From NCBI RefSeq assembly GCF_900104955.1, contig NZ_FNSI01000002.1, positions 62,001 to 126,000 on the forward strand: a stretch of 64,000 nucleotides of DNA. The letters are read 5' to 3'. The number at the start of each line of letters is the position of its first letter. Positions within the stretch are counted from its first letter, which is position 1. Position numbers and translations under genes: made by a program. Source of the stretch: Beijerinckia sp. 28-YEA-48. GTDB lineage: Bacteria > Pseudomonadota > Alphaproteobacteria > Rhizobiales > Beijerinckiaceae. The notes beneath the pieces were generated by a model, which saw nothing but the letters and a program-made list of their open reading frames with translations, did no database searches and was not told the origin of the DNA. This document shows, piece by piece, positions 4,219 through 20,366 of this stretch.

Positions 4219-4508
4219 TAGGAGCGATCTCCCCTGCCCCGATTGCTCTCGATATTGTGCAGATGCACGTGCTCGCCGGCGGCGATCGCCTGGGTGGCGC
4301 GCCCGACGACGACGCCATATTTAAGCACTGGAGCCCCAGCCGAGATATTGGTCAGCGCGAACTTATGACCAAACGGAATCGCAGAGCGCAACCGCACCTG
4401 CAACTGGCCCGACGCATCGACGATCTCGATCTCTGCGCCTGCGGCAAATTCCGCAAGACATGTCGCGACATTGTCTTGCGGATCTATCTTGAGCACTCGA
4501 TCCATCAC
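4218..4508 (-). CDS. SAF-domain small subunit, UxaA N-terminal / SuyA-like
   Basis: Small 96-residue protein consisting of one SAF domain, the equivalent of the N-terminal domain of UxaA. Diagnostic segments are IPFGHKFALTNISAGAPVLK and YGVVVGRATQAIAAGEHVH. It presumably forms a complex with the product of the next gene, whose start codon overlaps its stop by one base. SuyA of sulfolactate sulfo-lyase is a protein of this size and fold. It overlaps the end of the Bug binding-protein gene by four bases, so all are translated from one message. Confidence 0.8.
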   Translation of the reverse strand: MMDRVLKIDPQDNVATCLAEFAAGAEIEIVDASGQLQVRLRSAIPFGHKFALTNISAGAPVLKYGVVVGRATQAIAAGEHVHLHNIESNRGRGDRS

Positions 4509-5482: not shown

Positions 5483-5484
5483 GA

Positions 5485-5940
5485 TCACACCTCCGGTGAC
5501 TTTAACGAACTGCCGCCGGCCTGAAACATCGAGCGCGTGATCCGCTCGGCAAACCGCCAACCGGACGGTGTGAGCACGAACCTGTCGCGATACTCGCCAA
5601 TGGTTTCGGGACTGGAAAGTGGATACGGAGGCTGGAGCGTTGTCGCGCTATCGCCATGGTGTCGATAGACCGTGACCAGGCAACGCGAAACCGCGGTTTG
5701 CGTGCTGAGCACATCGATCGCGATGTTCGAGAGAATGTGGCAAGTGACACGATTTACCGGCCGCGCTGCATAAACTGCGCGCAAGCTTTCGATTCCGATA
5801 AACCGCTGACCGTCTCGATCCATCACGGCATTTTCATCGAACAAGCTAAGAGCGGCCTCATAGTCGCTATTGTCGGTGTAGTCAGCGAGAGCAACAATTA
5901 GTTTCGCGCAAGATTGCTCTATCTCATCAGCGGCCGCCAT
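5485..5940 (-). CDS. SnoaL/NTF2-like protein
   Basis: 151-residue protein of the nuclear transport factor 2-like superfamily (SnoaL_4 type): an N-terminal helical region (LIVALADYTDNSDYEAALSLF), an ENAVMDRDG strand-turn, and a C-terminal cone of strands including ITRSMFQ. Such proteins are small cytoplasmic enzymes (dehydratase, isomerase, hydrolase) or ring-hydroxylating dioxygenase beta subunits. No alpha subunit is nearby. It is the first gene of the operon, 213 bases from the divergent LysR gene. It may act on the same hydroxyacid substrate, but no catalytic residue set identifies the reaction. Confidence 0.65.
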   Translation of the reverse strand: MAAADEIEQSCAKLIVALADYTDNSDYEAALSLFDENAVMDRDGQRFIGIESLRAVYAARPVNRVTCHILSNIAIDVLSTQTAVSRCLVTVYRHHGDSATTLQPPYPLSSPETIGEYRDRFVLTPSGWRFAERITRSMFQAGGSSLKSPEV

Positions 5941-6153: not shown

Positions 6154-7080
6154 ATGAAAAAGACGCTTGCTAAGGCCGGTCTCAGTCTTGTCCGTATCCG
6201 GAGCTTCATCGCTGTTGCCGAAGAGATGCAATTCAAAAGGGCCTCAGAACGGCTGGCAATGACACAGCCGGCCGTTACCACTCATATCCAGGAACTGGAA
6301 GAATTTCTTGGGGTCGCATTGCTTCGCCGCACCACTCGACGAGTGGAGCTGACGGTGGAAGGGAAGCGCTTCTTAGCGCGCGCTACACGCGCCGTCGCCG
6401 AATTGGACGTAGGCGTACATGAGATGCGCGACCATGCCTCTCATCAACGAGGGCGCCTAGTCGTTGCCGCCGTGCCCTCGATCGCGTCGAAGGTCCTACC
6501 CCTCACTCTCGAACGTTTCGGACACCAACTCCCCAATGTGCGTGTCGAAATCATGGAACTGATGTCGAGCGAAATAGAGCGGGCAGTCTCCGAGGGCGAA
6601 GCGGATATAGGGATCGTTCCAAGGCCAGCAAAGAAAACGAACCTTGCATTTTCGCCCCTCATTGCGGACCAATTCGTCGCGGTCGTTCCAACTGCAAATG
6701 CATTGGCCAACCGAAAGTCGACGACACTGCAAGAACTCTCACATCAACCCATCATCGCAATAAAGCGGGGATCGAATATTCGAGACAGTGTTGAAGCGGC
6801 ATTTGCGAGGAGTAAGCAGAAGTTTACAATGCGCTACACCGTTGCACAGCCGGAAACGGCATTGGCGATGGTCGCCGCGGATCTTGGCGTGTCCATACTG
6901 CCGACTGTCTTCCTCAGCGGAAGCCTTCCGGTTTCCGTCGTGCAGATCAAGCCTGCTATTATTCGAGAGATAGGCGTTGTGAGCAGAAGAGGAGGACCCC
7001 TGTCGCAGATCGCGGTTGAGTTTCTTCGACACATGGAACAGGTCGTGCGAAGTCGTGGCAGCCGGCCCAAAACTATTTGA
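6154..7080 (+). CDS. LysR-family transcriptional regulator (paralogue 1)
   Basis: 308-residue LTTR. The winged helix-turn-helix covers about residues 10-70 (LVRIRSFIAVAEEMQF, then RLAMTQPAVTTHIQELEEFL and LLRRTTRRVELT). The effector-binding domain runs from about residue 95 (RGRLVVAAVPSIASKVLP) to about 300. It is divergent from the hydroxyacid operon and probably regulates it. A close paralogue lies at 26719-27636, with identical blocks such as KAGLSLVRIRSF and KRGSNIRDSVEAAF. Effector unknown. The ATG has no strong ribosome-binding site. Confidence 0.9.
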   Translation: MKKTLAKAGLSLVRIRSFIAVAEEMQFKRASERLAMTQPAVTTHIQELEEFLGVALLRRTTRRVELTVEGKRFLARATRAVAELDVGVHEMRDHASHQRGRLVVAAVPSIASKVLPLTLERFGHQLPNVRVEIMELMSSEIERAVSEGEADIGIVPRPAKKTNLAFSPLIADQFVAVVPTANALANRKSTTLQELSHQPIIAIKRGSNIRDSVEAAFARSKQKFTMRYTVAQPETALAMVAADLGVSILPTVFLSGSLPVSVVQIKPAIIREIGVVSRRGGPLSQIAVEFLRHMEQVVRSRGSRPKTI

Positions 7081-7125: not shown

Positions 7126-8490
7126 TTAGTAGTTACTCAGATCATCTCGAACACGATTTAGAAGCGAAAGGGGAGCACGAGCCCATTCCGAGCGGGTGTC
7201 GGTTTCGCCATCGCCCGGCCGCGTCGTGGCCACCATGCCGATTTTGGTCACGGTGAGATTTTCATGCACCGGATCGCACCGGTCCGCCTTGACATGCGGC
7301 ACGACAATCAAATCCTCGCCGCCGCGAAAACGCGCCGCGAGTGACCATTCCACCTCGCGCCAGTTTTCCGGATCGACATCGTCCTCGACCACGATCACCA
7401 GTTTGAGCAGGTTGACATGCCCCATGGCCAGCATGACGGCGCGCGCGCCTTCGCCAAGGCGCGGCTGATGCATGGAAATCACCGCATGCAGGCGGCCCAT
7501 GCCGCCTTCGGTGATGACGACGCGCCGCACGGCGGGAATCATGCGCTGCAGGGCCTGACACAGCGTCGCACCGATCGCGACGCCGCCGAGAAGGCAATGT
7601 TCGGCGGCATAGCCCGGCAAAATCGCCTGATAGATCGCATCGCGCCGATGCGTGACGCAGTGGATCGATCCCCCCATCCCAGGACCATAGTTGACGTAGA
7701 AACCATGGAATTCCGAGACCGGCCCTTCGTCGATCAACGCTTCCGGATCGAGATGGCCTTCCAGCACGATCTCGGCGTGAGCGGGAACTTCCAGATCGAC
7801 TGTCTTGCAGCGAACAAGCTGCAGTGCCTCGCCAAGCAGACCGCCGACCGTGTCGTATTCGTCATCGCCGAGCCCCAGATAGAGCTGCGAACCAAGCAGC
7901 ACCGCCGTGTGATTGCCGATGGCAACGGCGATTTCAAGCTTGCGGCCAAGCGCCTTGGCCTTCTCGGCCAGGATATAGAGGTGATGGTTCTTGGCGATGC
8001 CCGCCATGATCCGTCCGCCGCCTTCCAGGCGCAAACGGGCGATCGAGACGTTGCGGCGGCCGGTTTCCGGATCCTTGGCGATGATGACGCCGGCGGTGAT
8101 ATAGGGCGCGGTCTCGCGCTCGAACCAGGTCGGCACCGGCAGCAGGCCGGCCAGATCGATGTTGTCCGCGTGCACCACCTGCTGGACCGGCGCCGCATTG
8201 ACCAGAACCGGCTTGATCGGATGAGCCAGCGCCTGCCACAATTTCGCGTCCAGCTCTTCATGCTCCACGCCCAGGGCCTGCGCGAAGCGTTCGCGTGTCG
8301 CCAGGAGATTGCCGACCACCGGCATCGCATCGGCGGCGCCGACCTTTTCAAACAACAGGCCCGGGCCCCGATCCTTGAGCGCCATCACCGCGCCCAGCTC
8401 GAAGCGCGGGTCGACCAGCCGCTTCACACGGTGCAGCTCGCCCCTTTGCTCGAGGACGGAGATAAACCCGCGCATGCTTTGATCGGTCAT
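7126..8490 (-). CDS. UbiD-family prenylated-FMN decarboxylase
   Basis: 454-residue member of the UbiD (de)carboxylase family. These enzymes use prenylated FMN, Mn2+ and K+ to decarboxylate aromatic or alpha,beta-unsaturated acids. Family segments are visible: MRGFISVLEQRGELHRV at the N-terminus, NVSIARLRLEGGGRIMAGI with the cofactor-contacting Arg, PAHAEIVLEGHL with the conserved Glu, and DEGPVSEFHGFY. It is the last gene of the liv-hydantoin operon, 38 bases after the urocanase homologue. Its function there is not part of the known pathway. It needs a UbiX prenyltransferase from elsewhere. The substrate could be urocanate-like (an acrylic acid on a heterocycle), but nothing in the sequence shows this. 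Confidence 0.85.
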   Translation of the reverse strand: MTDQSMRGFISVLEQRGELHRVKRLVDPRFELGAVMALKDRGPGLLFEKVGAADAMPVVGNLLATRERFAQALGVEHEELDAKLWQALAHPIKPVLVNAAPVQQVVHADNIDLAGLLPVPTWFERETAPYITAGVIIAKDPETGRRNVSIARLRLEGGGRIMAGIAKNHHLYILAEKAKALGRKLEIAVAIGNHTAVLLGSQLYLGLGDDEYDTVGGLLGEALQLVRCKTVDLEVPAHAEIVLEGHLDPEALIDEGPVSEFHGFYVNYGPGMGGSIHCVTHRRDAIYQAILPGYAAEHCLLGGVAIGATLCQALQRMIPAVRRVVITEGGMGRLHAVISMHQPRLGEGARAVMLAMGHVNLLKLVIVVEDDVDPENWREVEWSLAARFRGGEDLIVVPHVKADRCDPVHENLTVTKIGMVATTRPGDGETDTRSEWARAPLSLLNRVRDDLSNY

Positions 8491-8528
8491 GGATTGCGTA
8501 CTCGCCTGTCTGAAATGCTTACAATGGC

Positions 8529-10181
8529 CTATTGCGGCGGCAACCGGAAATGCCGGATGTTCTTCTGGTGCGCTTCGTCCAAAGCCTCCTCATATCCGGC
8601 ATCGGCATAACGCATCACGCCCGTGGTCGTATCGTTGGTCAACGACAGGGAGAGACGCTCATCGGCCGCTTCCGAACCATCCGCCACCAAGGTAACGCCG
8701 GCACTTGTCATATAGCCCGAGTAACCGCCGCCGCCGGAATGAATGGCGACCAGATCGGCCTGCGAGGCGCAATGGACCATGGCGTTGAGCAGCGGCCAGT
8801 CGGCAATCGCATCCGATCCGTCGCGCATGTTCTCGGTCATGATATTGGGATGCGCCATGGCGCCGGCATCGAGATGATCGCGGGTGAACGCCACCGGACC
8901 CGATAATTTGCCATCGCGCACCATCTTGTTGACCGCGAGCCCCAGTTCCGTCCGCTCGCCATGGCCGAGCCAAGCGATGCGCGCCGGCAGCCCCTCGAAC
9001 GGCACGTGCTGGCGGGCCAGCCTGATCCAGTTCGAGACAATCTGATTGTCGCCGAAACGCTCGAGCACCAGGTCATCGATCTTGCGAATGTCTTCTGGAT
9101 CATTCGACAGAGCCACCCAGCGGAACGGGCCGATGGCGCGGGCGAACAGCGGCCGCAGGAAAGCTTCGGTAAAGATCGGAATATCGAACGCGTCGGCGAC
9201 GCCGCCGTTCTTGGCATGGGTGCGGATGAGATTGCCGTTGTCGAAGACAACCGCGCCCTTTTTCTGGAAGTCCAGCATCGCTGACACGTGGCGCACGATC
9301 GACTTGATCGATTCATCCATCAAAATCTTCGGATCGCCGTTGCGCATCTCACGTACATCTTCGAGGCTGCGGCCAGCAGGCACATAGCCATAGACGAGGT
9401 CATGCGCCGCCGTCTGGTCGGTCACCACATCGGGCACGATGCCGCGACGGACGATCTCCGGATAGACTTCGGCCGCATTGGCGCAGAGGCCCACCGACAA
9501 AGGCTTTTTCTCCACCTGCGCCTGGCGGATCATTTCCAGCGCTTCATCGAGCGACTTGGTTTTGACGTCGACAAAGCCAATCGCCATGCGCTTGTCGATG
9601 CGGGATTCATCGACATCGACGCACAGGATCGCCGCCTTCGCCATTTTTCCGGCGAGCGGCTGCGCCCCGCCCATGCCGCCCATGCCGGCGGTGAGCACGA
9701 AGCGCCCGGCCAGATCGCCGCCGAAATGTTTGGCCGCGATGCGCATGAAAATTTCATAGGTGCCCTGAATGACGCCCTGGGAGCCGATATATTGCCAGTC
9801 GCCGGCGGTGAGGCCGCCCCAGCAGATCAGATTCTTCTTCGCCAGCTCGTAGAAATTCTCGGCCTTCGCCCATTGGCCAACCATGTTGCAATTGGCCATG
9901 ATGATGACGGGCGCCTTGGCATGGGTCTTGATGACGCCGATCGGCTTGCCCGATTGCACCAGCAGGGTCTCGCCGTCCTCGATCGTCTTCAGCGTCTCGA
10001 CGATCTTGTCGTGCGAGGGCCAATCGCGCGCCGCACGGCCGAGCGCGGCGTAGACGACGAGATTGTCCGGGTCCTCGCCGACGGCCAGGACATTCTCCAG
10101 AAGACGCAGCAGTGCTTCCTGCCGCCAGCCCTTGCACCGCAATTGCCCACCGGAGGTGACCGAGAATGTACGCTTCGCCAT
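8529..10181 (-). CDS. Urocanate hydratase homologue, candidate thiourocanate hydratase
   Basis: 550-residue urocanase-family NAD-dependent hydratase, standard length. The NAD-binding GMGGMGGAQ lies at residues 167-174, and VYAALGRAARDW, QSGKPIGV and TDQTAAHD are conserved. The active-site region is altered. Where classical urocanases read PLFC, with the conserved cysteine, this protein reads PLFA (Ala347) before GPFRW. The usual FDYGNNIR is FDNGNLIR (313-320), and the usual HHGGGVG is HSGGGGY (481-487). No HutI, HutH or HutG is nearby. Instead the gene follows DUF917, carbamoylase and hydantoinase genes, fitting hydration of 2-thiourocanate in ergothioneine breakdown. Family is certain; the altered substrate is inference. 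Confidence 0.85.
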   Translation of the reverse strand: MAKRTFSVTSGGQLRCKGWRQEALLRLLENVLAVGEDPDNLVVYAALGRAARDWPSHDKIVETLKTIEDGETLLVQSGKPIGVIKTHAKAPVIIMANCNMVGQWAKAENFYELAKKNLICWGGLTAGDWQYIGSQGVIQGTYEIFMRIAAKHFGGDLAGRFVLTAGMGGMGGAQPLAGKMAKAAILCVDVDESRIDKRMAIGFVDVKTKSLDEALEMIRQAQVEKKPLSVGLCANAAEVYPEIVRRGIVPDVVTDQTAAHDLVYGYVPAGRSLEDVREMRNGDPKILMDESIKSIVRHVSAMLDFQKKGAVVFDNGNLIRTHAKNGGVADAFDIPIFTEAFLRPLFARAIGPFRWVALSNDPEDIRKIDDLVLERFGDNQIVSNWIRLARQHVPFEGLPARIAWLGHGERTELGLAVNKMVRDGKLSGPVAFTRDHLDAGAMAHPNIMTENMRDGSDAIADWPLLNAMVHCASQADLVAIHSGGGGYSGYMTSAGVTLVADGSEAADERLSLSLTNDTTTGVMRYADAGYEEALDEAHQKNIRHFRLPPQ

Positions 10182-10189
10182 CTGGAACC

Positions 10190-11278
10190 TCAGCTTAATG
10201 CGTAATCGGTGAGATTGAGGCCGAGCGCCTTTTCGACGATCGGATAGACCGACGGATCGGTGACGCTGGACGAGAGCGGAATCACATTCTTGGCGATCCG
10301 CAGCACCAGAAGCTCGTCGCCCTCACGGATTTCGCCGACGCTGGCGGGAACGCCGTTCTTATCCAGCGTGGTGATGACATCGGGGAAAGTGGCAAGGCGC
10401 GCGCCTTGCGCATCCTGTACCGCCATATATTCATTCATCACATGCAAGGTGATCGCCTTGGCGCCTTCGTTGATGGTAATGGTACCAATATCGAAGGCTT
10501 CATTGGTATATGTGACCGCCTTCTTCATCACCTTGCCCTGGCCGATGATCTCGCCCTTGGTTTCCCGGCAGATGGCGTCGATCACCGCCGCGCCGCCCTT
10601 GGCTTCCGCGTTCAAAATCGCTTCACCCAACGCCAACGCGATGGAAATGCCGCCGAGCGCCGCATGTTTTTTGACATAGGATGCGGGCACGGGATTGCGG
10701 CAGGAGGCGATGAAGCCCCCGGACATGTCCGAGGCCGTGCGCAGGATCGGCGAGATCTTGCCTGTCGCGCCACGCACCACTAGTTCGATATAGGCGTTCT
10801 TGCTGCGGTTGCCGCCGACCGCCGACTGGATCATCGGCACCGGCGAATTGGCGAGGCCGATCGAACCCATGTCGCCGGTCGGATGCGCGCGAATGTCGCC
10901 GACCGCATCGATGACCTTGGTGCCGAGAATGGCCGACGGCAGCCAGGCATTCATCGTGCTCGATTTGCCGTTCTGGCCGATGATCAGCCCATAGATCGGC
11001 GCGCCCAATTCCTTCTGCACCAGCTGCACGGCCTTGACGTAATCAACGCCGAGCATCTGCCATTCGGTGGTGCTGGCCGGCGCGCCGATGGCGGCGGCGG
11101 TAGCGATCCAGGCGTCATCAGGCACTTCATCCATCGACACCAGTTCGGGCTGGCCGGCATTGACCGCCGCCGTGCCCAGCATGCGGCCGTGATCGGCCCA
11201 GCCGCCGCCACCCGCTGCGAAAACCGCTCCGCCCTTGCCGGCGCATTCCACGTCGCGCGCGTTAAGAATCCGTCCCAT
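10190..11278 (-). CDS. DUF917 protein, candidate thiohydantoin desulfurase
   Basis: 362 residues, full-length DUF917 family, with a glycine-rich N-terminus (GKGGAVFAAGGGGWADHGRM) and the family segments GLIIGQNGKSSTMNAW and HPTGDMGS. Members have been linked to removal of sulfur from thiohydantoin or S-methylthiohydantoin derivatives, and others are found beside hydantoinases. Here it lies eight bases before the urocanase homologue and eleven after the carbamoylase. In the known ergothioneine pathway this is where 3-(5-oxo-2-thioxoimidazolidin-4-yl)propionate is converted to hydantoin-5-propionate. A role as hydantoinase-like subunit or acetone-type activator cannot be excluded. Confidence 0.7.
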   Translation of the reverse strand: MGRILNARDVECAGKGGAVFAAGGGGWADHGRMLGTAAVNAGQPELVSMDEVPDDAWIATAAAIGAPASTTEWQMLGVDYVKAVQLVQKELGAPIYGLIIGQNGKSSTMNAWLPSAILGTKVIDAVGDIRAHPTGDMGSIGLANSPVPMIQSAVGGNRSKNAYIELVVRGATGKISPILRTASDMSGGFIASCRNPVPASYVKKHAALGGISIALALGEAILNAEAKGGAAVIDAICRETKGEIIGQGKVMKKAVTYTNEAFDIGTITINEGAKAITLHVMNEYMAVQDAQGARLATFPDVITTLDKNGVPASVGEIREGDELLVLRIAKNVIPLSSSVTDPSVYPIVEKALGLNLTDYALS

Positions 11279-11289
11279 TTTCGGCTCCG

Positions 11290-12543
11290 TCAGCTGTTGT
11301 GTCCGTCGAGAAGCCGCACGGCTTCATACATGGCGGCGGCGCCCGCCGCGATCTGTTCCGGCTCGGTCCATTCCTCCGGCGCGTGGCTTTTGCCATCGCG
11401 ACAAGGAATGAACAGCATGGCGCTCGGCGCGATCTTGGCGACGAAGGCGGCATCGTGGCCAGCGCCCGAGGCCAGGGTCATCGCCGAAAAGTCATAGCGC
11501 TTCGCGCCCCGCCCAAGCAGGTCGCGCAGATGGCTGTCGCAAGCCGTCGGCTGCGTGTCAGAGAGAATGGCGTAGCGCTTCAATTCGACATTTTCCTGAG
11601 CGGCAAAGGCGCGGCTTCCGCGTTCCAGCGCCGATTTGAATTCCGCCACCAAAGCATAATCCTCGGCGCGGATGTCGAAAACGAGACGCGCTTCGCCGGG
11701 AACCACATTGGAGGCATTGGGATGAATGTCGATAATGCCCGTGGTGGCGACGAAATGGCCCTTGCCCTGCCCCGCCAGCTCCTTCGCCCGCCGGTTGACG
11801 AAGAGCAGAAGCTGCGCCGCCGCCAGGCTGGCGTCGCGCCGATAGCTCATCGGCGTCGCGCCGGCATGATCGGCCTCGCCCTTGAAGACGACCTCGATGC
11901 GGGTGATGCCGACGATCGCTGACACCAGGCCGAGATCGATCTTGTTGTTTTGCAGCACCAGGCCCTGCTCGATGTGCAGTTCGAGAAAGCCGGCAACATC
12001 GGAGCGGCGCGCCTGCGCCAGCCGGTCCGGATCACCCCCAACGCGGCGGATCGCGTCCGCCAGCTTTTCGCCAGCGGCATTGGTATAGGCCAGCATCTTG
12101 TCGTCGAGCGCGCCGACCATGGCGCGGCTGCCGACACAGGAAATGCCGTATTCGCTGGGCTCTTCGGCCAGAAAATCCACCACTTCGACCGGGTGGCGCG
12201 GCTGATAGCCCGCATCCTTCATGGCGCGGACGATTTCAAGCGCGACGATGACACCGGCAATGCCATCGAAGCGCCCGCCCGAGGGCACGGTGTCGGAATG
12301 TGATCCGAGCATGATCGGCGGCGCGGCCGCCTCCGTGCCTTCCACACGTCCGATCAGATTGGCCGCCTGATCGAGACGCACGCTCAATCCGGCTTCCTCG
12401 AAACGCTGGCGCAGCCACTCGCGTCCCTCAAGAAAACGCTGCGAGAAAGAGCGGCGCGTGTAAGGCCTGTCCGGATCGGTAATGGCCGCTAGGGCCATTA
12501 TATCGTTCCACATGCGGTCCTGATTGATCGGCAGCTTGTTCAT
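11290..12543 (-). CDS. Zn-dependent N-carbamoyl-L-amino-acid amidohydrolase (HyuC/AllC family, M20)
   Basis: 417-residue amidase of the M20 carbamoylase/allantoate amidohydrolase branch. Metal-site motifs are GSHSDTVPSGGRFDG and EEPSEYGISCVGSRAM, and LELHIEQG is the signature of this branch. The dimerisation lid domain follows (GEADHAGATPM). It would release NH3 and CO2 from an N-carbamoyl amino acid. With the hydantoinase immediately upstream (one-base overlap, TGATG) the expected substrate is the ring-opened hydantoin; in the ergothioneine route that is N-carbamoyl-L-glutamate, giving glutamate. Allantoate amidohydrolase is the alternative, but no ureidoglycolate or allantoin genes are present. 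Confidence 0.85.
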   Translation of the reverse strand: MNKLPINQDRMWNDIMALAAITDPDRPYTRRSFSQRFLEGREWLRQRFEEAGLSVRLDQAANLIGRVEGTEAAAPPIMLGSHSDTVPSGGRFDGIAGVIVALEIVRAMKDAGYQPRHPVEVVDFLAEEPSEYGISCVGSRAMVGALDDKMLAYTNAAGEKLADAIRRVGGDPDRLAQARRSDVAGFLELHIEQGLVLQNNKIDLGLVSAIVGITRIEVVFKGEADHAGATPMSYRRDASLAAAQLLLFVNRRAKELAGQGKGHFVATTGIIDIHPNASNVVPGEARLVFDIRAEDYALVAEFKSALERGSRAFAAQENVELKRYAILSDTQPTACDSHLRDLLGRGAKRYDFSAMTLASGAGHDAAFVAKIAPSAMLFIPCRDGKSHAPEEWTEPEQIAAGAAAMYEAVRLLDGHNS

Positions 12544-13931
12544 CAGGCTGCGGCCTCCGCCCGGCTCGCCAGAACCGGATGCACGAAGGTGCCGTTGCCC
12601 GGCGCGGCCAGAACGTTGGTGCCGTCGAAGATCGCCTTGCCGCGCAGGAAAGTCGCCACCGGACGATACGGCAGTTCGATGCCCTCATACGGGCTCCAGC
12701 CGACGAAGTTGTGACCGCTCGCGGCCGCATCGTAGCGGCCCGGGCGATGGGCCATCACCGTGATGTCGGCATCGCGGCCCGCTTCGAGCGCGCCTTTGCG
12801 ATGGCCGATGCGGAACAGGCGCGCCGGATTGGCGGCCAGGAGGCGCGCCGCCCAGGTGACATCAAGGCGACGTTCGGTCAGCCCCTTCAGCAGCAGCGCA
12901 TAGAGCACTTCGAGGCTCGGCACACCGGAGGCATTCTTCAGCATGTCCGGATTGGTCTTGCGATCTTCCGACCAACTCACATGATCGGTGGACACCACTG
13001 TCACATTGCCGGCGGCGAGATGACGCCAGAGCGCCTCGACTTCCCGGCGCGGGCGGAGCGGCGGATTGATCTTCGCTTTGCCGCCGAGCCGCGCCACGTC
13101 GTTTTCTTCGTCGAGGGTCAGGTAGTGGATGCAAGCTTCGATGGTGTGATCGAATCCCTGCGCCCGATAGCCCGCGCACAGGTCATAGCCGCGCCCGAGC
13201 GAACAATGGACGATGTGCCCGGAGCAGCCGGCATCGGCCGCCAGTTCGTAAACCTCCGCCATGGCCAGGGTTTCCGTCGCCGGCGGACGCGACATGGCGT
13301 GGGCGCGATAATCGCGGATGCCGGAGACTTCCACCGCCTGAATGGCGGCGCGCACCATTTCGTCGTTCTCGTTATGAACACCAGCGATCAGTCCATGGCG
13401 ACCGATTGCCTTGAAACAGGCATGAAGGGTCTGCGGGGGGATGCGCGGAAACCGCTTCGGATCGGTGCCAAAAGTCGAGAATTTGAACGAGGCGGCGCCC
13501 GCCGCGACCATTTCGTCGATCCGCTTGGCGCCTTCCTCGGGATCGATCGTGGCATAGAGCGCAAAGTCGACGCGCGCCTGCGCCCCCGCCTCGTCAGCCT
13601 TGCGGCGAACGTGCTCGCCGGAGGACACCAGAAACCCTTCATCATAAGGCATGTCGACGATGGTCGTGACACCGCCGGCGGCGGCTGAGCGGGTCGACCA
13701 GATGAAATCTTCCTGGTCTTTCTGCGAGCGCGAATGGACCTGGGAATCGATGGCGCCCGGCAGCACATAGGCGGCGCCAAAGTCGGCTCGTTCCCTGGCC
13801 TGCGGCGGCGTGCCAGCGCCGACCCGTTCAACGATGCCGCCGCGAACGGCGACATAGCCATTGTCGATCACATGGTCGGTGAGGACGACACGGCCGGTTA
13901 CGACAAGATCGAAATCACTCATCACAGTCAC
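12543..13931 (-). CDS. Hydantoinase/allantoinase-family cyclic amidohydrolase
   Basis: 462-residue amidohydrolase of the dihydropyrimidinase/allantoinase/dihydroorotase type. The binuclear site is recognisable: Asp62-x-Gln64-x-His66 where HxH is usual, Lys150 (SFKF, the carboxylated lysine), His186 (GVHNE), His242 (IVHCSLG) and Asp316 (STDHVSW). The first metal-binding His is thus replaced by Gln, a change also known in some dihydroorotase-like branches. Translation starts at GTG 13931, directly after the livF stop, or at ATG 13922 (MSDFDLVV). With the carbamoylase it forms a hydantoin-opening pair; hydantoin-5-propionate is the inferred substrate. Confidence 0.85.
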   Translation of the reverse strand: MTVMSDFDLVVTGRVVLTDHVIDNGYVAVRGGIVERVGAGTPPQARERADFGAAYVLPGAIDSQVHSRSQKDQEDFIWSTRSAAAGGVTTIVDMPYDEGFLVSSGEHVRRKADEAGAQARVDFALYATIDPEEGAKRIDEMVAAGAASFKFSTFGTDPKRFPRIPPQTLHACFKAIGRHGLIAGVHNENDEMVRAAIQAVEVSGIRDYRAHAMSRPPATETLAMAEVYELAADAGCSGHIVHCSLGRGYDLCAGYRAQGFDHTIEACIHYLTLDEENDVARLGGKAKINPPLRPRREVEALWRHLAAGNVTVVSTDHVSWSEDRKTNPDMLKNASGVPSLEVLYALLLKGLTERRLDVTWAARLLAANPARLFRIGHRKGALEAGRDADITVMAHRPGRYDAAASGHNFVGWSPYEGIELPYRPVATFLRGKAIFDGTNVLAAPGNGTFVHPVLASRAEAAA

Positions 13932-14628
<697 letters not shown>

Positions 14629-14642
<14 letters not shown>

Positions 14643-15390
14643 GATCGTCGGCCTTTCCTACATAGGCTTCGCGAACAGCCTGATTGGCCATCACTTCGGC
14701 CGGGGCTCCATCGGCGATGATCTTGCCGCCGTCCAGCACCAGCAAACGCTTGGAGACACGCACCAGTTCGCTCAGATTGTGTTCGATCAGAACGATGGTC
14801 AGCCCTTCCGCATTGAGCGCGGCAAGCGTATCGGCTTGCTGCTCCGCTTCGCGGTGGTTGAGGCCGGCCAGCGGCTCGTCGAGAATGATGACGGACGGAT
14901 CGAGCGCCAGGGCGCGCGCTACTTCCAGCCGCTTGAGATTGCCCAGAGGCAAGGCGCTGACATCACGGTGTTCCAGGCCGCCAAGGCCGACCTTGGCGAG
15001 CATTTCCGCGGCGCGAGACGTCTGCATTACCCGCCGCCAATGGAAGGCGGCGGTCAGCGGATTGGAGGTGATCTTATATCCCGCCGCCAGCGCCGTGTTG
15101 TCGAGCGCCGTCATCGAGCGGAACGGCCGCACGATCTGATGGGTGATCGCCAGCCCCTTGCGCACGCGCTTGGCCGTCGGCAGACGCGTTACATCAGCAC
15201 CTTCAAGCATGACGCGGCCAGTGTCGGGCGTCAGAATGCCGGCGATGATTTTCAACAAGGTCGTCTTACCGGCGCCGTTGGGGCCGATCAGGCCGACGAA
15301 CTCGCCCTTCTGGACGGAGAAATTGACATCCGTCAGGGCTTGAACGCCGCCGAAGCGGATGGAAACGGATTCGACTTGCAGCGTTGTCAT
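14629..15390 (-). CDS. livG: Branched-chain amino acid-type ABC transporter ATPase LivG
   Basis: 253-residue ATPase, LivG type. Walker A GPNGAGKTTLLK is near residue 36, PLGNLKRLEVARALALDP stands in the place of the signature motif, and Walker B reads VIILDEPLAGLN. The signature is atypical, with LGNLKRLE where LSGGQ or LSYGQQR is normal, an oddity that may lower ATPase activity. It overlaps livM by four bases and pairs with LivF to drive the LivHM permease. Confidence 0.88.
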
Positions 15391-16235
15391 GCCTTGCGCA
15401 GCCTCCGTGTGAGCGACGTCGCGATCCCGGCGAGACCGCCCGGAGCGAACCGCATGACCAGCATCAACACACCGCCGAAAATCAGCAGCCGATAGTCGTT
15501 GATGAAACGGAACGCCTCCGGCAGCAGTGTCAGAATGATCGCCGCGATCACCACGCCCCAGGTCGAGCCGATGCCGCCGATCACCACCATCGCCATCACC
15601 GTCACCGACAGAATGAAGGTGAAGGAATCGGGCACGATGAATTGGGTGAAATAGGTGTAGAGGCCGCCCGCCAGCCCGGCGATCGCCGTGCCGATGGCGA
15701 AGGCCAGCAGTTTATAAGTGGAGACGGGAATGGCGATCGTCCGCGCCGCCTGCTCATCATCGCCCACCGCGCGGAACGCGAAGCCGAGCCAGCTGCGGTT
15801 GAGATAGAGACACAACGCGATGGTGGCTGCGGCAAACAGCAGGATCATCACCGCATTGCCCTCGGGGCCGAGGCCGCTGGCGGGAATCTTGCTGATGCCC
15901 ATTTCGGCGCCGAGCCACTTTTGCTTGCGCACGAAGCCGACGAACAGAAAGCTGACGCCGATCGTCGTCACCACGAGAAAATCTTCGCGCAGCCGCACGG
16001 AGGCGAAGCCGACGATGAAGCCGAGCGCGCCGCCCACCGCCATGCCGGCCAGCAAAGCGACCGGCACGGGATAGCCCGCGACCGCGCACAGCGCCGCCGC
16101 ATAGGCGCCCGCGCCATAGAAAGCACCGTGGCCCAGGCTGAACTGACCGCAGAAGCCGCTGATCAGATTCAGGCTGACCGCCAGCATGATATTGATGCCG
16201 AGGATCGAGAGAAGACTGTAAGCATACAGGGTCAT
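15387..16235 (-). CDS. livM: Branched-chain amino acid-type ABC permease LivM
   Basis: 282-residue inner-membrane permease. Family segments are NIMLAVSLNLISGFCGQFSL followed by GHGAFYGAGAYAAALC at the N-terminus and the coupling-loop segment RAVGDDEQAARTIAIPVSTY. About eight hydrophobic spans are visible. It overlaps livH and livG by four bases each. Substrate follows the operon; here probably a hydantoin, thiourocanate or betaine-like compound instead of leucine. Confidence 0.9.
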   Translation of the reverse strand: MTLYAYSLLSILGINIMLAVSLNLISGFCGQFSLGHGAFYGAGAYAAALCAVAGYPVPVALLAGMAVGGALGFIVGFASVRLREDFLVVTTIGVSFLFVGFVRKQKWLGAEMGISKIPASGLGPEGNAVMILLFAAATIALCLYLNRSWLGFAFRAVGDDEQAARTIAIPVSTYKLLAFAIGTAIAGLAGGLYTYFTQFIVPDSFTFILSVTVMAMVVIGGIGSTWGVVIAAIILTLLPEAFRFINDYRLLIFGGVLMLVMRFAPGGLAGIATSLTRRLRKA

Positions 16236-17098
16236 GCACGTGCCCCGGTCAGGCCCTGGGGACGCACCATCAGGACGATAATTAGAAACAGGAAGGCCAG
16301 CGCGTCGCGGTCGAGATAGGAACCGACCCAGATCGTGCCGAAGGATTCGACCAGGCCGAGCGCCAGCGCCGCGATCAACGTGCCGCGCATGCTGCCCAGG
16401 CCGCCCAGGACGATAATGGCCAGCGCCTTATAGCTGACGACAAAGCCCATGGTCGGCTCGACGAAATTGTTCAGAAGCGCGATCAATGCTCCTGCCAGCG
16501 CCGCCAGGGCCGACCCGATCATGAAATTCAGGTAGCGCACCTTGATCGCGTCAACGCCGAAACTGGTGGCGATGACGGGATTGGACACTGTCGCGCGCCA
16601 GGCGATGCCCATGCGCGTGCGCGTCGTGAACAGGGCCAAGGCAACCAGGCAGACCGTCGACAGGACGATCATCGCGATCTGCACCGTGTTGATCGTCACG
16701 CCGAACACATCGTAGATCTGCGTCGGATAGGGATTGCGCGTGAAGGTCAGCCCCTGTTCACCGAACACGATGCGGAACGCATCTTCCATAAAGATGAGCA
16801 GGCCGATCGAAGCGATCATCGCCACATAGGGCGGATGACTGAGCAGCGGCTGGTAGAGCACGCGATAGACGCCCATGCCGAAGATGGCCGACACGACGAT
16901 GGCCACCACGATGCCGAGCGCGATACTGCCGGTGGCATTGGCGACGATCACGGTGATGAAGGCGCCCAGCGCATAGACGATGGCGTGCGCGATATGAAGA
17001 ATCCGCAGCAGGCCATAGACCAGCGTCAGGCCGATGGCCATCAGCGCGTACATGCTGCCGAAGATCAGGCCGTTGAGAAGAAGATCGACGTAATACAC
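16232..17098 (-). CDS. livH: Branched-chain amino acid-type ABC permease LivH
   Basis: 288-residue inner-membrane permease. It has LLLNGLIFGSMYALMAIGL at the N-terminus, YGLLRILHIAHAIVYALGAF, and the coupling loop ATVSNPVIATSFGVDAIKVR, all LivH-type. The start appears to be GTG 17098. A 96-base gap with a strong hairpin separates it from livK, a layout that commonly lets the binding protein be made in excess. Confidence 0.9.
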   Translation of the reverse strand: MYYVDLLLNGLIFGSMYALMAIGLTLVYGLLRILHIAHAIVYALGAFITVIVANATGSIALGIVVAIVVSAIFGMGVYRVLYQPLLSHPPYVAMIASIGLLIFMEDAFRIVFGEQGLTFTRNPYPTQIYDVFGVTINTVQIAMIVLSTVCLVALALFTTRTRMGIAWRATVSNPVIATSFGVDAIKVRYLNFMIGSALAALAGALIALLNNFVEPTMGFVVSYKALAIIVLGGLGSMRGTLIAALALGLVESFGTIWVGSYLDRDALAFLFLIIVLMVRPQGLTGARA

Positions 17099-17138
17099 AA
17101 ATGTGATCCCACAGGAGAGACCGGATATCGAGACCGAT

Positions 17139-17176
17139 CGTCAGGGCCCGGGCTTGCGCCCGCATTGGCCCTGACG
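17139..17176 (-). terminator. Hairpin between livK and livH (attenuator or mRNA stabiliser)
   Basis: A perfect 10-base inverted repeat, CGTCAGGGCC (17139-17148) and GGCCCTGACG (17167-17176), encloses a second smaller stem (CGGGC/GCCCG). No U-run follows, so partial termination or protection of livK mRNA is more likely than full termination. Confidence 0.65.
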
Positions 17177-17194
17177 TTACCCGGGTGAACCGCC

Positions 17195-18367
17195 TTATTC
17201 GGTCGGCGGCGCGAGCAGTTTCAGATCATCGATCCAGGTGAAGTGGCGGAACTGCCCGTCCTTCACAATATTGACGTTCATCGGCATGTTGATTTCGCGC
17301 AGCGGATTGAAGCTGACCAGTTTGCCAGCAAGATGCGGGAAGTCCTTCGTGTTCGCGAGCGCGTCGCGCACCTTGGCCTGATCCAGCGTACCGGCACGGT
17401 TGATGGCGTCAGCCATCAGAACGATCGCCGAATAGACGGTCGCGCCGACATTTTCACCAGGATAGCCGGCGCGCTTCTGGAAATCGGCCAGATAGGTCTT
17501 CAGCTCTTCGTTCGACGGGTCGCGGTTGAGGCCGCCGACGATATAGACGCCTTCCACCGCAGGACCGGCGATTTCGATGAGCTTTTGCGCATCGAAGGCC
17601 TGCGAGCCGATGATCGGCACGGTGATGCCGGCGGCGCGGAGCTGCGTCACCAGCGGACCGCCAGTGAAGAAATAGCCGGTGATATAGACCGCTTCCGGAT
17701 TGTCGCGCTTGACGCTGGCGACGATCGAACCGAACTGCCGGTCGCGCAGCGGGTAAGAATATTCACCGAGAACTTTTATGCCGAACGTATCGACCGCGCT
17801 TTTGAAACCTTCGAGCGTCGCCTGGCCATAGTCGTTGTCCATCGAGATGACGGAAATCCGCTTCTTGCCGAGGGTGTCGCCGATGAATTTGGCGGCGGCG
17901 CGGCCCTGCGGCTGGCCAAGATGGACGGTGCGGAAGGCATATTCGCCGGTGCGCGTGATATCGGGATGCACGCCATAAGCGGAGATGAACGGCACTTTGG
18001 CGTTCTGGAAGATCGGCGCGGCGGCGCGGCCGGAGGCGGAATAGCTGCCCGACACGGCGAATTTCACGCCGTCCTGGCCGATCAGCTTATTGGCCGTGAA
18101 GACCGCGTCTTCGGTCTTGGCCTGATCGTCATAGGTCACCAGCTCGGCCTTCTGGCCGAGAATGCCGCCCTTGGCGTTGATGCGCTCGATCGCCAGCTCG
18201 GAGGCCACTTTGGCGGAGACGCCATCGGTGGCGGCCGGACCCGTCAGGGGAGCCTGGAAACCGATCTTAACCTGAGCGGCTGCCGGAAAGGCCGCCAGCG
18301 TACCGATCGCCAGGGCTGCGGCGCCTATTAAGGCGGAAGCGGAAACATAGGAAAAATGAGCTTTCAT
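17195..18367 (-). CDS. livK: Branched-chain amino acid-type periplasmic binding protein LivK
   Basis: 390-residue periplasmic binding protein of the Leu/Ile/Val-BP family (peripla_BP_6). A signal peptide ends near residue 31 (AALAIGTLAAFPAAAQ). The mature chain begins VKIGFQAPLTGPAATDG and contains INAKGGILGQKAELVTYDDQ, both typical. It is the first gene of the operon, divergent from the tandem-LysR gene across 181 bases. The ATG has GAGGG upstream. The family binds diverse ligands (amino acids, amides, urea, aromatics), so a hydantoin or thiourocanate-like ligand is possible. Confidence 0.9.
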   Translation of the reverse strand: MKAHFSYVSASALIGAAALAIGTLAAFPAAAQVKIGFQAPLTGPAATDGVSAKVASELAIERINAKGGILGQKAELVTYDDQAKTEDAVFTANKLIGQDGVKFAVSGSYSASGRAAAPIFQNAKVPFISAYGVHPDITRTGEYAFRTVHLGQPQGRAAAKFIGDTLGKKRISVISMDNDYGQATLEGFKSAVDTFGIKVLGEYSYPLRDRQFGSIVASVKRDNPEAVYITGYFFTGGPLVTQLRAAGITVPIIGSQAFDAQKLIEIAGPAVEGVYIVGGLNRDPSNEELKTYLADFQKRAGYPGENVGATVYSAIVLMADAINRAGTLDQAKVRDALANTKDFPHLAGKLVSFNPLREINMPMNVNIVKDGQFRHFTWIDDLKLLAPPTE

Positions 18368-18481: not shown

Positions 18482-18505
18482 ATATCGATTGAGAATGACG
18501 GATAT
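18482..18505 (+). promoter_or_regulatory. Candidate operator dyad between livK and the tandem-LysR gene
   Basis: ATATC-N14-GATAT lies 44 bases before the chosen ATG of the LysR-type gene and 115 bases from livK. It lies within the longer open frame, which supports a downstream start. The spacing differs from a classical T-N11-A box, perhaps because the regulator carries two DNA-binding domains in one chain. Confidence 0.35.
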
Positions 18506-18548
18506 CAGATTTTCCTATACCATCCTTCCGCGCGAAGGGTTGAAATTC

Positions 18549-20366
18549 ATGGATTTTCGGCAGGTACAGTATTTCACGGCGGCGGTTGAGCAGCGCAGCA
18601 TGAGCGCCGCGGCCGCAGCCTGCCAGGTGACGCAGCCGACTTTGAGCACGCAGATCCGTCAGCTTGAGATCGAATTGAACGATGTGCTCTTCGGGCGCAC
18701 GCCGATTGGCCTGCGGCCGACCAAATCGGCGCAGCGTCTGTATCGAAAAGTATCGCCGCTGCTCGATGCCGCCATGCACGGCCTCCATTATGTTCGCGCC
18801 GCCGAGACCGCGCCGATCAGGACGCTGCGCGTTCAAATTCCCTATTCGGCGGCGAGCTTATTGATGCGGGCCTGCCGCCAAGCCGGCCAAGCCCTCGCGG
18901 TCAAAGCCCCGCAGATCAGAACCACTTATTTCCCCTCGGAGATCGGCCCCGCGCCGCGCGACGAGCTGATACAGATCGATCACGATATAGATCTCGCAGG
19001 AGACGGCACCGCGATCTCCGACCAATGGCTGCTGATCAGCATAGGCGGACCGGCGCAGGATCGCCGCGCGCAGCCGCGCGTCGAGACCCTGGATGGAGAC
19101 ATTAATCTTCCCGCCCTGCCACTCAGGGTGCGCGAAGCCTTGAAGAAATGGCCCATCGGCGGCGAATATGTTTTTCATCACCATGCCGAGGATGCGGATG
19201 AATTGATCGCCGTTCTGCTGGCACAAAACAGCGGACGGATTCTTGCGCCGCGCCTGGCGATCAATCCACGAATTCTGCAACATCCCCGGTTGCTCGTGCG
19301 CGATGTCACGAAAGTGCTTCCGCCGCTGCGCCTCACGATCACCTGCGATGATCAGGGCCGCCCCGAGCAGCGCGCCTATTGCGCGGTGTTGAAAGCGCAA
19401 ATCGTCAAAGCCAAGCGAAACCCTGAAGAAACAAGTGAAACCCAGGCGCCTCCCGAGACGCGGCAATTGCGCTATTTCCTGCGTGCTTTCGAGGAGGGGT
19501 CCATGACCCGGGTCGCGGCAAAACTCAATGTCGTTCAACCGGCCGTCAGCATGCAGATCCGGACGCTGGAACAGAGCCTTGGCGGCACCCTTTTCACGCG
19601 CACGTCGCAAGGCATTCACCCAACGGCGCTCGCCTATACAGTGCGTGAGATCTACGCGCCGATCCTGGAAGCGCTGCGCCAGGAAGGACGCAACCCCACG
19701 GCAAAACCGCTGCGCGCACGCACCACCCTGCGCGTCGGTGTTCTGCCGGGACTAGACGAGGACAGTCTTCTTGTTCGCGCGATGACCGCCACGATCCTGC
19801 AATGGCAGAAGGCCTTTGCGAACGTCGAACTCAAGATCGTTGAATCGCACAGCGGCGTCCTGCTGGACTGGCTGGCCGAAAACGTGGTCGACATCGCCAT
19901 CGTCGAGGATCTGCACACCCATACCGCGCTCAAGGAAACGGTGTTGTTTGCCGAACCGCTCTCGATTCTGACCGCAGCCGGACAATCGATTTGCCCGACA
20001 GGGCCCATCAAAATGGCCGACATCGGCAAGCTCGATCTTGTTTTGCCATCGCAGCGCCATGGCCTGCGCGCACTTCTGGATCGCAAATTCGCCGACGCCG
20101 GCCTGCCGCTCGTGCCGAAACTGGAGCTTGATTCCATGGCCGCCGCCATCCGCCTGGTGAAATCAGGCGGCTGGGCCACGGCCATGCCCGCATCGGCGGT
20201 GCGGCGCAGTCTCGAAACTCAGGTCCTTGAAGCCCACGCGATCGTGCGCCCCTCGATCCTCCGCCAGCTGCGTGCGGTCCGACTTTCTCGCCACCAGAAT
20301 CGTCCGTGGGAAGGCAAGTTCAGCGATCTTCTGCGGGCGCAGCTGGCGCAGTTGACGAGCGTTTAG
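18549..20366 (+). CDS. Tandem double LysR-type regulator
   Basis: 605-residue protein made of two LysR-type regulators joined head to tail. The first DNA-binding domain is at residues 1-60 (MDFRQVQYFTAAVEQRSMS, then VTQPTLSTQIRQLE), followed by an effector-like region to about 285. The second DNA-binding domain is at 303-365 (RQLRYFLRAFEEGSM, then VVQPAVSMQIRTLE), followed by a second effector domain (RTTLRVGVLPGLD to about 600). Normal LTTRs are about 300 residues. The frame opens upstream, but ATG 18549 has AAGGG nearby and gives the canonical LTTR N-terminus. It is divergent from the liv-hydantoin operon and probably controls it. The first effector half is poorly conserved and may serve structure only. 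Confidence 0.9.
   Translation: MDFRQVQYFTAAVEQRSMSAAAAACQVTQPTLSTQIRQLEIELNDVLFGRTPIGLRPTKSAQRLYRKVSPLLDAAMHGLHYVRAAETAPIRTLRVQIPYSAASLLMRACRQAGQALAVKAPQIRTTYFPSEIGPAPRDELIQIDHDIDLAGDGTAISDQWLLISIGGPAQDRRAQPRVETLDGDINLPALPLRVREALKKWPIGGEYVFHHHAEDADELIAVLLAQNSGRILAPRLAINPRILQHPRLLVRDVTKVLPPLRLTITCDDQGRPEQRAYCAVLKAQIVKAKRNPEETSETQAPPETRQLRYFLRAFEEGSMTRVAAKLNVVQPAVSMQIRTLEQSLGGTLFTRTSQGIHPTALAYTVREIYAPILEALRQEGRNPTAKPLRARTTLRVGVLPGLDEDSLLVRAMTATILQWQKAFANVELKIVESHSGVLLDWLAENVVDIAIVEDLHTHTALKETVLFAEPLSILTAAGQSICPTGPIKMADIGKLDLVLPSQRHGLRALLDRKFADAGLPLVPKLELDSMAAAIRLVKSGGWATAMPASAVRRSLETQVLEAHAIVRPSILRQLRAVRLSRHQNRPWEGKFSDLLRAQLAQLTSV

Follow-up and report, generated by a model that had tools for sequence, protein, structure and literature searches.

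Which compound is processed by the ten genes found at 7126-18367 of the window (the entire 64,000-nucleotide stretch of Beijerinckia sp. 28-YEA-48 DNA analyzed), and what is the role of the UbiD-family gene lying among them? Thiourocanate is a breakdown product of ergothioneine, a mushroom antioxidant, and the sequence-only reading had assigned the genes to a co-directional operon of the late ergothioneine (thiourocanate) pathway. The operon is borne out. Ten open reading frames reside on the minus strand, with gaps of -14 to +96 bases, in the transcription order livK, livH, livM, livG, livF, ErtD, ErtE, ErtC, ErtB, UbiD (gaps from livK to UbiD: 96, -4, -4, -14, 0, -1, 11, 8 and 38 bases). Pfam domains were searched in six of the ten genes, and UbiD, urocanase, S-Me-THD (DUF917), M20, amidohydrolase and Peripla_BP_6 were all found. 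A LysR gene marks either flank, both on the plus strand (Table 1). Two HTH_1 stretches, as in the divergent regulator, are also featured by the four similar LysR-type proteins scanned beside UbiD modules (L113, L135, L138, L160). Promoter matches were below shuffled expectation, terminator matches at shuffled expectation.

Table 1. Genes of the operon, in transcription order, and flanking regulators
Gene product	Position	Strand	Model score
livK-type periplasmic substrate-binding protein	17195..18367	-	Pfam Peripla_BP_6 220 bits
livH-type ABC permease	16232..17098	-	best NCBIfam: UrtB 147, LivH 143 bits, both below cut-off (family membership only)
livM-type ABC permease	15387..16235	-	LivM 151 bits, below cut-off
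livG-type ABC ATPase	14629..15390	-	LivG 190 bits, below cut-off
livF-type ABC ATPase	13932..14642	-	LivF 204 bits, below cut-off
ErtD, hydantoin-5-propionate amidohydrolase (hydantoinase)	12543..13931	-	NF058538 778 bits, curated cut-off 600
ErtE, N-carbamyl-L-glutamate amidohydrolase (M20 carbamoylase)	11290..12543	-	NF058540 587 bits, curated cut-off 520
ErtC, thiohydantoin desulfurase (DUF917 / S-Me-THD fold)	10190..11278	-	NF058529 609 bits, curated cut-off 440
ErtB, thiourocanate hydratase (urocanase homologue)	8529..10181	-	NF058530 1034 bits, curated cut-off 930
UbiD-family enzyme, clade found near ErtD/ErtE genes	7126..8490	-	TIGR00148 308 bits, cut-off 245
Divergent tandem LysR regulator, two HTH_1 stretches and one LysR_substrate	18489..20366	+	Pfam
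LysR regulator beyond the operon 3' end	6154..7080	+	Pfam HTH_1 and LysR_substrate

The assignment to the late ergothioneine pathway is supported by the NCBIfam equivalogs, whose curated cut-offs are passed by all four enzymes, and which are the best-scoring models for each. ErtB also passes the broad hutU model (722 bits, cut-off 375), and has 7ned as best solved chain (835 bits). ErtE passes, with lower scores, Zn-dependent hydrolase NF009531 (550, cut-off 486), the subfamily 'allantoate amidohydrolase' NF006771 (404, cut-off 399) and the hydantoinase/carbamoylase subfamily TIGR01879 (367, cut-off 204). In the NCBIfam scan of the operon proteins the dihydropyrimidinase and allantoinase models were both under cut-off (allantoinase versus ErtD, 257 bits, cut-off 358); homology to allantoin or pyrimidine enzymes, a check suggested earlier, is outscored by the ergothioneine equivalogs. 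The S-methyl thiourocanate route features the same folds, but ErtB scores 764 bits with its hydratase model NF058531 (cut-off 880), and ErtC 272 bits with its desulfurase model NF058532 (cut-off 450). The methylated urocanate, previously listed among the substrates, was dropped because both models were missed. Clusters of the S-methyl route (L114, L161) encode a Liv transporter related to that of the window (52-70% identity).

According to family membership, the uptake system and the four enzymes should convert thiourocanate to glutamate. ErtB would add water to thiourocanate to give thiohydantoin propionate, ErtC would swap sulfur for oxygen, releasing sulfide, ErtD would open the ring of hydantoin-5-propionate, and ErtE would liberate L-glutamate. 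Later steps of the ergothioneine catabolic pathway are reportedly found in Burkholderia sp. HME13. The same four equivalog families of that pathway (HME13; ert NCBIfam models) are here in one operon, which differs from the HME13 system in including a Liv-type transporter and UbiD, and in that the genome searches turned up no ergothionase.

The sequence-only reading had noted that ergothionase is missing from the window. The search was extended to the whole genome, which is 99.6% complete, taking a lyase devoid of the MIO motif as the mark of ergothionase. PF00221 has only two matches, both with GASGDL, hence of the MIO type, one above the hutH cut-off, the other HutH-like but below it. Neither PF00221 nor the ergothionase profile revealed an ergothionase in the genome, and no profile score fell in the ergothionase range; an unlinked classical ergothionase was accordingly dropped. 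This result favours the earlier guess of an imported acid, for example thiourocanate, as the expected starting compound. The Liv-type ABC transporter would import thiourocanate or a close relative. LivK has 11 matches of low similarity (108-125 bits) to solved sequences at E 1e-25 or better, all Leu/Ile/Val-type or other amino-acid binding proteins, a point against the imported-acid account.

The nearest solved chain of the operon UbiD is 6h6v (294 bits), named polyprenyl-hydroxybenzoate-decarboxylase-related protein in the match list, which we take to be HmfF, the furan-2,5-dicarboxylate (FDCA) decarboxylase. A catalytic Arg-Glu-Glu triad marks prFMN-dependent UbiD decarboxylases, and R152/E255/E260 are kept in 33/33 rows of the clade to which the window UbiD belongs (support 100/99 in the UbiD tree). 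HmfF R304, presumably involved in binding of the second carboxylate, is replaced by Ile in 33/33 clade rows (Ile306 in the window), and an FDCA-like dicarboxylate was therefore ruled out as substrate. The genome context is also unlike that of HmfF. HmfF is nevertheless the closest solved UbiD, and the triad is kept along with the His at chain position 296 (H297 in PMC7976604). With the clade profile, 6h6v scores 383 bits, and no chain named Fdc1 exceeds 159. L005, L120, L147 and the contig-split G017 copy were not among the rows passing the coverage filter of the tree, and L015 was omitted as a duplicate of L117.

With slightly more confidence than doubt, the operon is read as an ergothionase-free ergothioneine pathway fed by an imported acid, in which UbiD provides a second entry by decarboxylation. 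Using prenylated FMN (prFMN) supplied by the UbiX of the genome (242 bits, cut-off 109), UbiD would most likely decarboxylate a carboxylated heteroaromatic relative of thiourocanate, with loss of the ring or extra carboxylate and retention of the side chain, and its product would join the pathway at or above hydantoin-5-propionate. Literature searches yielded no relevant paper linking ergothioneine with UbiD, or combining any two of urocanase, UbiD and hydantoinase. The classical ergothioneine route works without UbiD and we know of no carboxylated thiourocanate; both are counted against the second entry.

The distribution of the clade was analyzed in 81 rows, the window and the top 80 among 221 related loci. 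Of the 18 searched genomes having both the hydratase and a clade UbiD, 17 lack ergothionase; in these, UbiD scores 630 bits or more in 16 and is split over two contigs in one (G017). The ergothionase profile gave no match in the ergothionase range in any of the 17, and the loops of 19 of the 21 lyases matched in these genomes showed the MIO motif. Among 56 ergothionase-bearing genomes, clade UbiD was found in one, G078, where the hydratase, the ergothionase and a UbiD of 551 bits coexist, UbiD in a separate cluster. Neither an ergothionase, by the criteria used, nor a clade UbiD was found in 7 of the 81 rows. The ergothionase call relies on score alone in G014 and G016. No lyase match of any kind, HutH included, was obtained in four of the 17 genomes (G002, G017, G020, G022), hence some of them are incomplete or fragmented, and incompleteness may contribute to the exclusion pattern. 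The kinship-corrected test had too few pairs to be significant (of 5 usable pairs, 0 went the same way and 2-3 the opposite way, with no difference in the remainder; median p 0.25); with G078 counted as UbiD-bearing, 0-1 pairs go the same way. Herbaspirillum and Pandoraea carry UbiD instead of ergothionase and are nested among ergothionase-bearing relatives in the hydratase tree, which was built quickly, with SH-aLRT as the sole support measure and with proteins over 570 aa trimmed to the last 560 residues. Hydratase and clade UbiD are found also in G119, G1086 and Thalassospira marina, in the latter in one cluster; these and the L006 genome lie outside the ergothionase-searched set.

ErtD and/or ErtE homologues reside near 29 of the 33 clade members in the tree. 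Elsewhere, clade UbiD clusters with ErtD, ErtE, often UbiX, and various lyases, with no hydratase or desulfurase in the cluster; it adjoins lyases in L118, L130-L134, L137, L138, L160 and L162. In Rhizobium tropici CIAT 899 (L159), genes for UbiD, UbiX and a lyase homologue are neighbours. UbiD is thus not simply a stand-in for ergothionase, and strict lyase replacement was rejected, since some of the lyases next to clade members have the MIO motif and others lack it. The ErtD cut-off is passed by four of the five ErtDs scanned from UbiD clusters lacking the hydratase, and by L119 ErtD, scanned separately. Members from such clusters intermingle with others in the ErtD tree. Both observations indicate that the side-chain carboxylate of the UbiD substrate is probably kept, and the data suggest that clade UbiD and its ErtD/ErtE neighbours make up a module delivering hydantoin-5-propionate. 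A role as prFMN desulfonase of urocanate-2-sulfonate was rejected by reasoning, since the urocanate produced would leave ErtD and ErtE roleless. Gene calls in the fetched stretches were made by a simple script, which may miss genes or starts. Four of the 29 plasmid records with a UbiD match (25 listed), and four of the 23 with an ErtD match, were inspected. A tblastn search of plasmids with the S-methyl hydratase, at a very strict limit, gave no match, missing even the S-methyl hydratase gene of plasmid L161.

UbiD is unlikely to be a non-decarboxylating prFMN enzyme, hydrating or rearranging 2-oxo- or 2-thio-urocanate to hydantoin propionate, with prFMN in the role played by NAD+ in the urocanase mechanism. 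To our knowledge no prFMN hydration or rearrangement of this kind exists; ErtB is also present in the window, and the decarboxylation residues are conserved throughout the clade. The formation of a covalent prFMN adduct with imidazole in HudA, described in PMC7976604, speaks for this chemistry, as do a lyase and ErtD found beside UbiD without ErtB and ErtC in L130-L132, L137, L138 and L160. In each of the genomes of L130-L132 a single urocanase was found, with a HutU-like score of 678-689 bits (G763 has a further 26-bit scrap), and none was found in those of L133 and L134. On the other hand, G119 and G1086 encode a thiourocanate hydratase elsewhere in the genome, and G1144 an apparent one, in two adjoining pieces. 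It is likewise improbable that the UbiD clade with ErtD, ErtE and often UbiX forms an unrecognised urocanase-free module turning imidazole acrylates into hydantoin-5-propionate. Parallel to the thio branch in the window, it would use prFMN chemistry other than side-chain decarboxylation, on lyase-made or imported inputs, such as 2-oxo-urocanate from 2-oxo-histidine or oxidised ergothioneine.

An ordinary ergothioneine operon, with the lyase unlinked or of an unrecognised family, appears distinctly unlikely. Ergothionase lies outside the fetched stretch in G012, G013 and G014, and lyase loops without the MIO triad are found in L161, L142 and L143 (of 51 in-cluster lyases, one was compared with solved structures), but the genome of the window has only the two GASGDL homologues. 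Very unlikely is also the decarboxylation by UbiD of thiourocanate itself to vinyl thioimidazole, as overflow or side route. Thiourocanate is an aryl acrylate, and acrylic acids are substrates of Fdc1-type UbiDs (PMC7976604); the reaction would however compete with ErtB, the clade profile favours 6h6v over Fdc1, and the conservation of ErtD points to a side chain that keeps its carboxylate. There is similarly little chance that UbiD is a hitch-hiker whose substrate is an unrelated aromatic acid. Genomes often have several UbiD paralogues (nine matches in this one), and ErtD/ErtE were not seen in the fetched stretch for 4 of the 33 clade members, but members of one and the same clade accompany ErtD/ErtE in a variety of gene arrangements. 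Histidine, allantoin, hydantoin or pyrimidine catabolism can be practically dismissed. The folds are common to these pathways, urocanase homology to the Hut pathway included, and broad hutU and M20 models pass with lower scores, but the ergothioneine equivalogs rank first, HutI and HutG are absent among the ten operon genes, and the genome has, outside the operon, a HutH and a second urocanase whose score is in the HutU range.

The pathway is already known; its UbiD-bearing, ergothionase-free form is new. This form suggests that what ergothioneine users leave behind, rather than ergothioneine itself, sustains some bacteria, and thiourocanate may thus serve as a shared nutrient in habitats other than the gut. 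The usual partners of UbiD point to hydantoin-5-propionate as product or near-product, a clue to the function of the clade. As far as we know, prFMN serves only (de)carboxylation; if the UbiD step is new chemistry, it would add a further reaction to the repertoire of this cofactor.

The operon found in the window (Table below) had been described in the sequence-only reading as ten co-directional genes with overlaps or gaps under 100 bases. This layout holds, as all ten ORFs lie on the same strand, and intergenic gaps measure, in transcription order, 96, -4, -4, -14, 0, -1, 11, 8 and 38 bases. The six genes scanned with Pfam encode Peripla_BP_6, amidohydrolase, M20, S-Me-THD (DUF917), urocanase and UbiD proteins. 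The four other transporter genes match Liv/Urt-type NCBIfam models, all below cut-off, and are assigned to the family by models which do not name the substrate. LysR genes, both on the plus strand, reside at the two operon ends. Tandem LysR proteins similar to the upstream one are encoded beside the UbiD modules L113, L135, L138 and L160.

Coordinates of the operon, its flanking genes and related loci
Location	Coordinates	Strand	Content
Window	18367-7126	minus	ten-ORF operon
Window	7126-8490	minus	UbiD of the operon
Window	18489-20366	plus	LysR-type protein with two HTH stretches (Pfam), upstream
Window	3022-5940	minus	downstream: UxaA-type dehydratase C-terminal part and SnoaL-like protein (Pfam); TctC-like binding protein (name read from sequence) in between
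L084 (own genome, contig C1)	7307-13154		HutH-like GASGDL lyase between M20 gene passing the allantoate amidohydrolase model and permease-like gene; preceded by PuuE-type allantoinase-like gene (this and permease named from sequence)
L161 (Agrobacterium plasmid pAt15955)	1-17711		Liv transporter, S-methyl thiohydantoin desulfurase, GST, ErtE homologue, S-methyl thiourocanate hydratase, molybdopterin S/N-oxide reductase, ErtD homologue (78% to the window's), betaine transporter, lyase with shortened MIO loop
L041 (Raoultella genome G026 with hydratase cluster, contig C2)	319781-321390		ergothionase-like gene, split

The thiourocanate route is already known, and NCBIfam holds equivalog models for ergothioneine/thiourocanate pathway enzymes. 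The whole ergothioneine route has reportedly been reconstituted in vitro. The urocanase homologue (ErtB, thiourocanate hydratase) scores 1034 bits with the thiourocanate hydratase model (cut-off 930) and 722 bits with the broad hutU model (cut-off 375). The DUF917 protein (ErtC) scores 609 bits with the thiohydantoin desulfurase model (cut-off 440), the hydantoinase 778 bits with the model of ErtD, the hydantoin-5-propionate amidohydrolase (cut-off 600), and the carbamoylase 587 bits with that of ErtE, the N-carbamyl-L-glutamate amidohydrolase (cut-off 520); broader M20 models are also passed by the carbamoylase, with lower scores. Scores with the S-methyl hydratase model (urocanase homologue, 764 bits, cut-off 880) and the S-methyl desulfurase model (DUF917 protein, 272 bits, cut-off 450) fall short. 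Among solved structures, the urocanase homologue best matches chain 7ned (835 bits), the other ten listed scoring 637 bits or less. A second urocanase elsewhere in the genome scores 720 bits with the thiourocanate model, in the HutU range, and HutH is also encoded elsewhere. The late ergothioneine (thiourocanate) pathway proposed earlier for the operon is therefore a well supported prediction, since all four enzymes exceed equivalog cut-offs, S-methyl models are not matched at theirs, and a HutU-range urocanase and HutH reside outside the operon. The gene content of the L161 cluster suggests a pathway for ergothioneine that has been S-alkylated or oxidised.

Passages of PMC13405746 cite Muramatsu 2013, Maurer 2019, Yan 2022, Zhou 2025 and Feng 2025, report cross-feeding of gut bacteria on thiourocanic acid, and describe ergothionase, the ammonia-lyase-type first enzyme of the pathway, as devoid of MIO. 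PMC7976604 deals with HudA. Literature searches, mostly outside subscription journals, returned nothing relevant linking UbiD to ergothioneine, urocanase or hydantoinase, which argues weakly for novelty of the UbiD link.

The search for an ergothionase proposed in the sequence-only reading revealed none in the source genome. Two PF00221 homologues were found, one above the hutH cut-off, the other HutH-like and below it, and both feature the MIO triad motif GASGDL. Among the best 80 of 221 loci with hydratase relatives, 51 carry, inside the fetched stretch, a lyase homologue without detected GASGDL. One of these (L041) is split by a frame change; another (L055) best matches, among solved structures, ergothionase 6s7j. 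A profile built from 15 of the 51 lyases gave 439-759 bits with the seven unbroken ergothionases met in genome searches, and at most 338 bits with lyases of UbiD genomes. Ergothionases outside the fetched stretch were found in five more genomes (G012, G013, G014, G016, G030), for a total of 56.

The operon UbiD belongs to a clade supported 100/99 against six paralogues. At a threshold of E 1e-110 or better, clade members mark 4 of 385 genomes searched in the class, 2 of 398 in the phylum and 10 of 397 in the order, own genome counted each time; neighbourhoods were fetched for all 12 other clade-bearing genomes. ErtD and/or ErtE homologues lie near 29 of the 33 clade members, the others being L111, L112, L113 and L159 (L111 and L113 are contigs below 10 kb). 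UbiX is encoded nearby in 15 of 33 (L011, where it was named from sequence, L109, L118, L119, L130, L133-L138, L157, L159, L160, L162). A PEP-mutase-like protein is found in the UbiD-UbiX-Dpp-ErtD clusters (L109, L119, L135, L136, L162), and TIGR02444/DUF2390 in L109, L135 and L162. Relatives (54%) of the L084 lyase adjoin UbiD in L133 and L134.

Gene content of clusters with clade UbiDs
Cluster	Genes
L130	ErtD, lyase without MIO motif, UbiD, UbiX, ErtE
L131, L132	as L130, no UbiX called
L137, L138	UbiD, UbiX, ErtD, ErtE, lyase with GACGDL
L133, L134	UbiD, UbiX, GASGDL lyase; more distant ErtD and Liv transporter
L119, L135, L136, L109 (of G078)	UbiD, UbiX, Dpp transporter, PEP mutase, ErtD
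L118	UbiD, UbiX, ErtE, lyases without motif
L120	UbiD, lyase without motif
L162 (Agrobacterium vitis)	Dpp type (UbiD-UbiX-Dpp-PEP mutase-ErtD), GASGDL lyase
Rhizobium jaguaris	ErtD, ErtE, UbiD, UbiX, relative (70%) of an L118 lyase; OpuAC betaine-binding protein nearby
Ensifer canadensis	ErtD, ErtE, UbiD, UbiX; no lyase or hydratase in stretch
Thalassospira marina	ErtD, ErtE, ErtC, ErtB, UbiD, TRAP transporter
L111, L114 (two genomes)	UbiD near S-methyl thiourocanate hydratase and GST; in L114 also S-methyl desulfurase and a Liv transporter sharing 59-70% identity with that of the window

Catalytic Arg-Glu-Glu residues are conserved in 33/33 clade UbiDs, so that, on a conservative reading, the enzyme would decarboxylate a carboxylate other than the side-chain one. 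UbiX is encoded in the source genome. The nearest solved UbiD structure is 6h6v, which we take to be HmfF; its Arg304 is replaced by Ile in all 33 clade members, whereas four of the six paralogues keep Arg. Where UbiD clusters lack hydratase, their ErtDs passed the ErtD cut-off in 4 of 5 cases in one scan, that of L133 falling under it (588 vs 600), and L119 passes in another; in a tree of 93 ErtDs they are intermixed with the others. Should these ErtDs still act on hydantoin-5-propionate, the side-chain carboxylate cannot be the group that UbiD takes off. A point against this argument is that thiourocanate hydratase is encoded elsewhere in G119 and G1086, and seemingly, as two pieces, in G1144, so that ErtD may also serve the usual route there.

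A profile made from six cluster UbiDs was searched in whole genomes. Clade-type UbiDs are present in 18 of 81 hydratase rows, window included. In 13 UbiD lies within the hydratase cluster; in L050 its start lies some 2.2 kb away from the hydratase gene and a contig end breaks it, and in L008, L009, L012 and L028 it resides on a different contig. Scores range from 630 to 824 bits in 16 genomes, the G017 UbiD is in two pieces (262 and 243 bits), and other UbiDs score at most 342 bits, G078 (551 bits) excepted. Ergothionase was searched for in 17 of the 18 genomes (all except that of L006), and an ergothionase-range match was found in none. MIO motifs were read in 19 of their 21 lyase matches; L087 and a 39-bit piece in G031, both fragments, make up the rest. 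Of the 56 ergothionase genomes, 1 (G078) hosts a UbiD clade relative, in a separate cluster; if it is counted, 18 searched genomes combine hydratase and clade UbiD, and 17 of them lack ergothionase. By the criteria used, seven rows (L017, L033, L034, L036, L044, L059, L069) have neither gene; L017 and L069 are not clean negatives, because G021 (L017) encodes a MIO-less lyase (386 bits) and G029 (L069) two lyases with another loop.

On the hydratase tree 6 changes of UbiD state are required, 4 being forced by starred branches, and Herbaspirillum and Pandoraea nest among ergothionase carriers. Applied to 5 pairs, a kinship-corrected test counted 0 in which the two traits changed the same way and 2-3 in which they changed in opposite directions, with a median p of 0.25. 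Mutual exclusion of clade UbiD and ergothionase is thus suggestive, not proven. Four of the 17 UbiD genomes (G002, G017, G020, G022) gave no lyase match at all; incomplete assembly may matter there, and trust in the best explanation is slightly lowered on this account. This explanation, still somewhat favoured, is that the operon dispenses with ergothionase and would be fed by an imported acid, UbiD providing a second entry.
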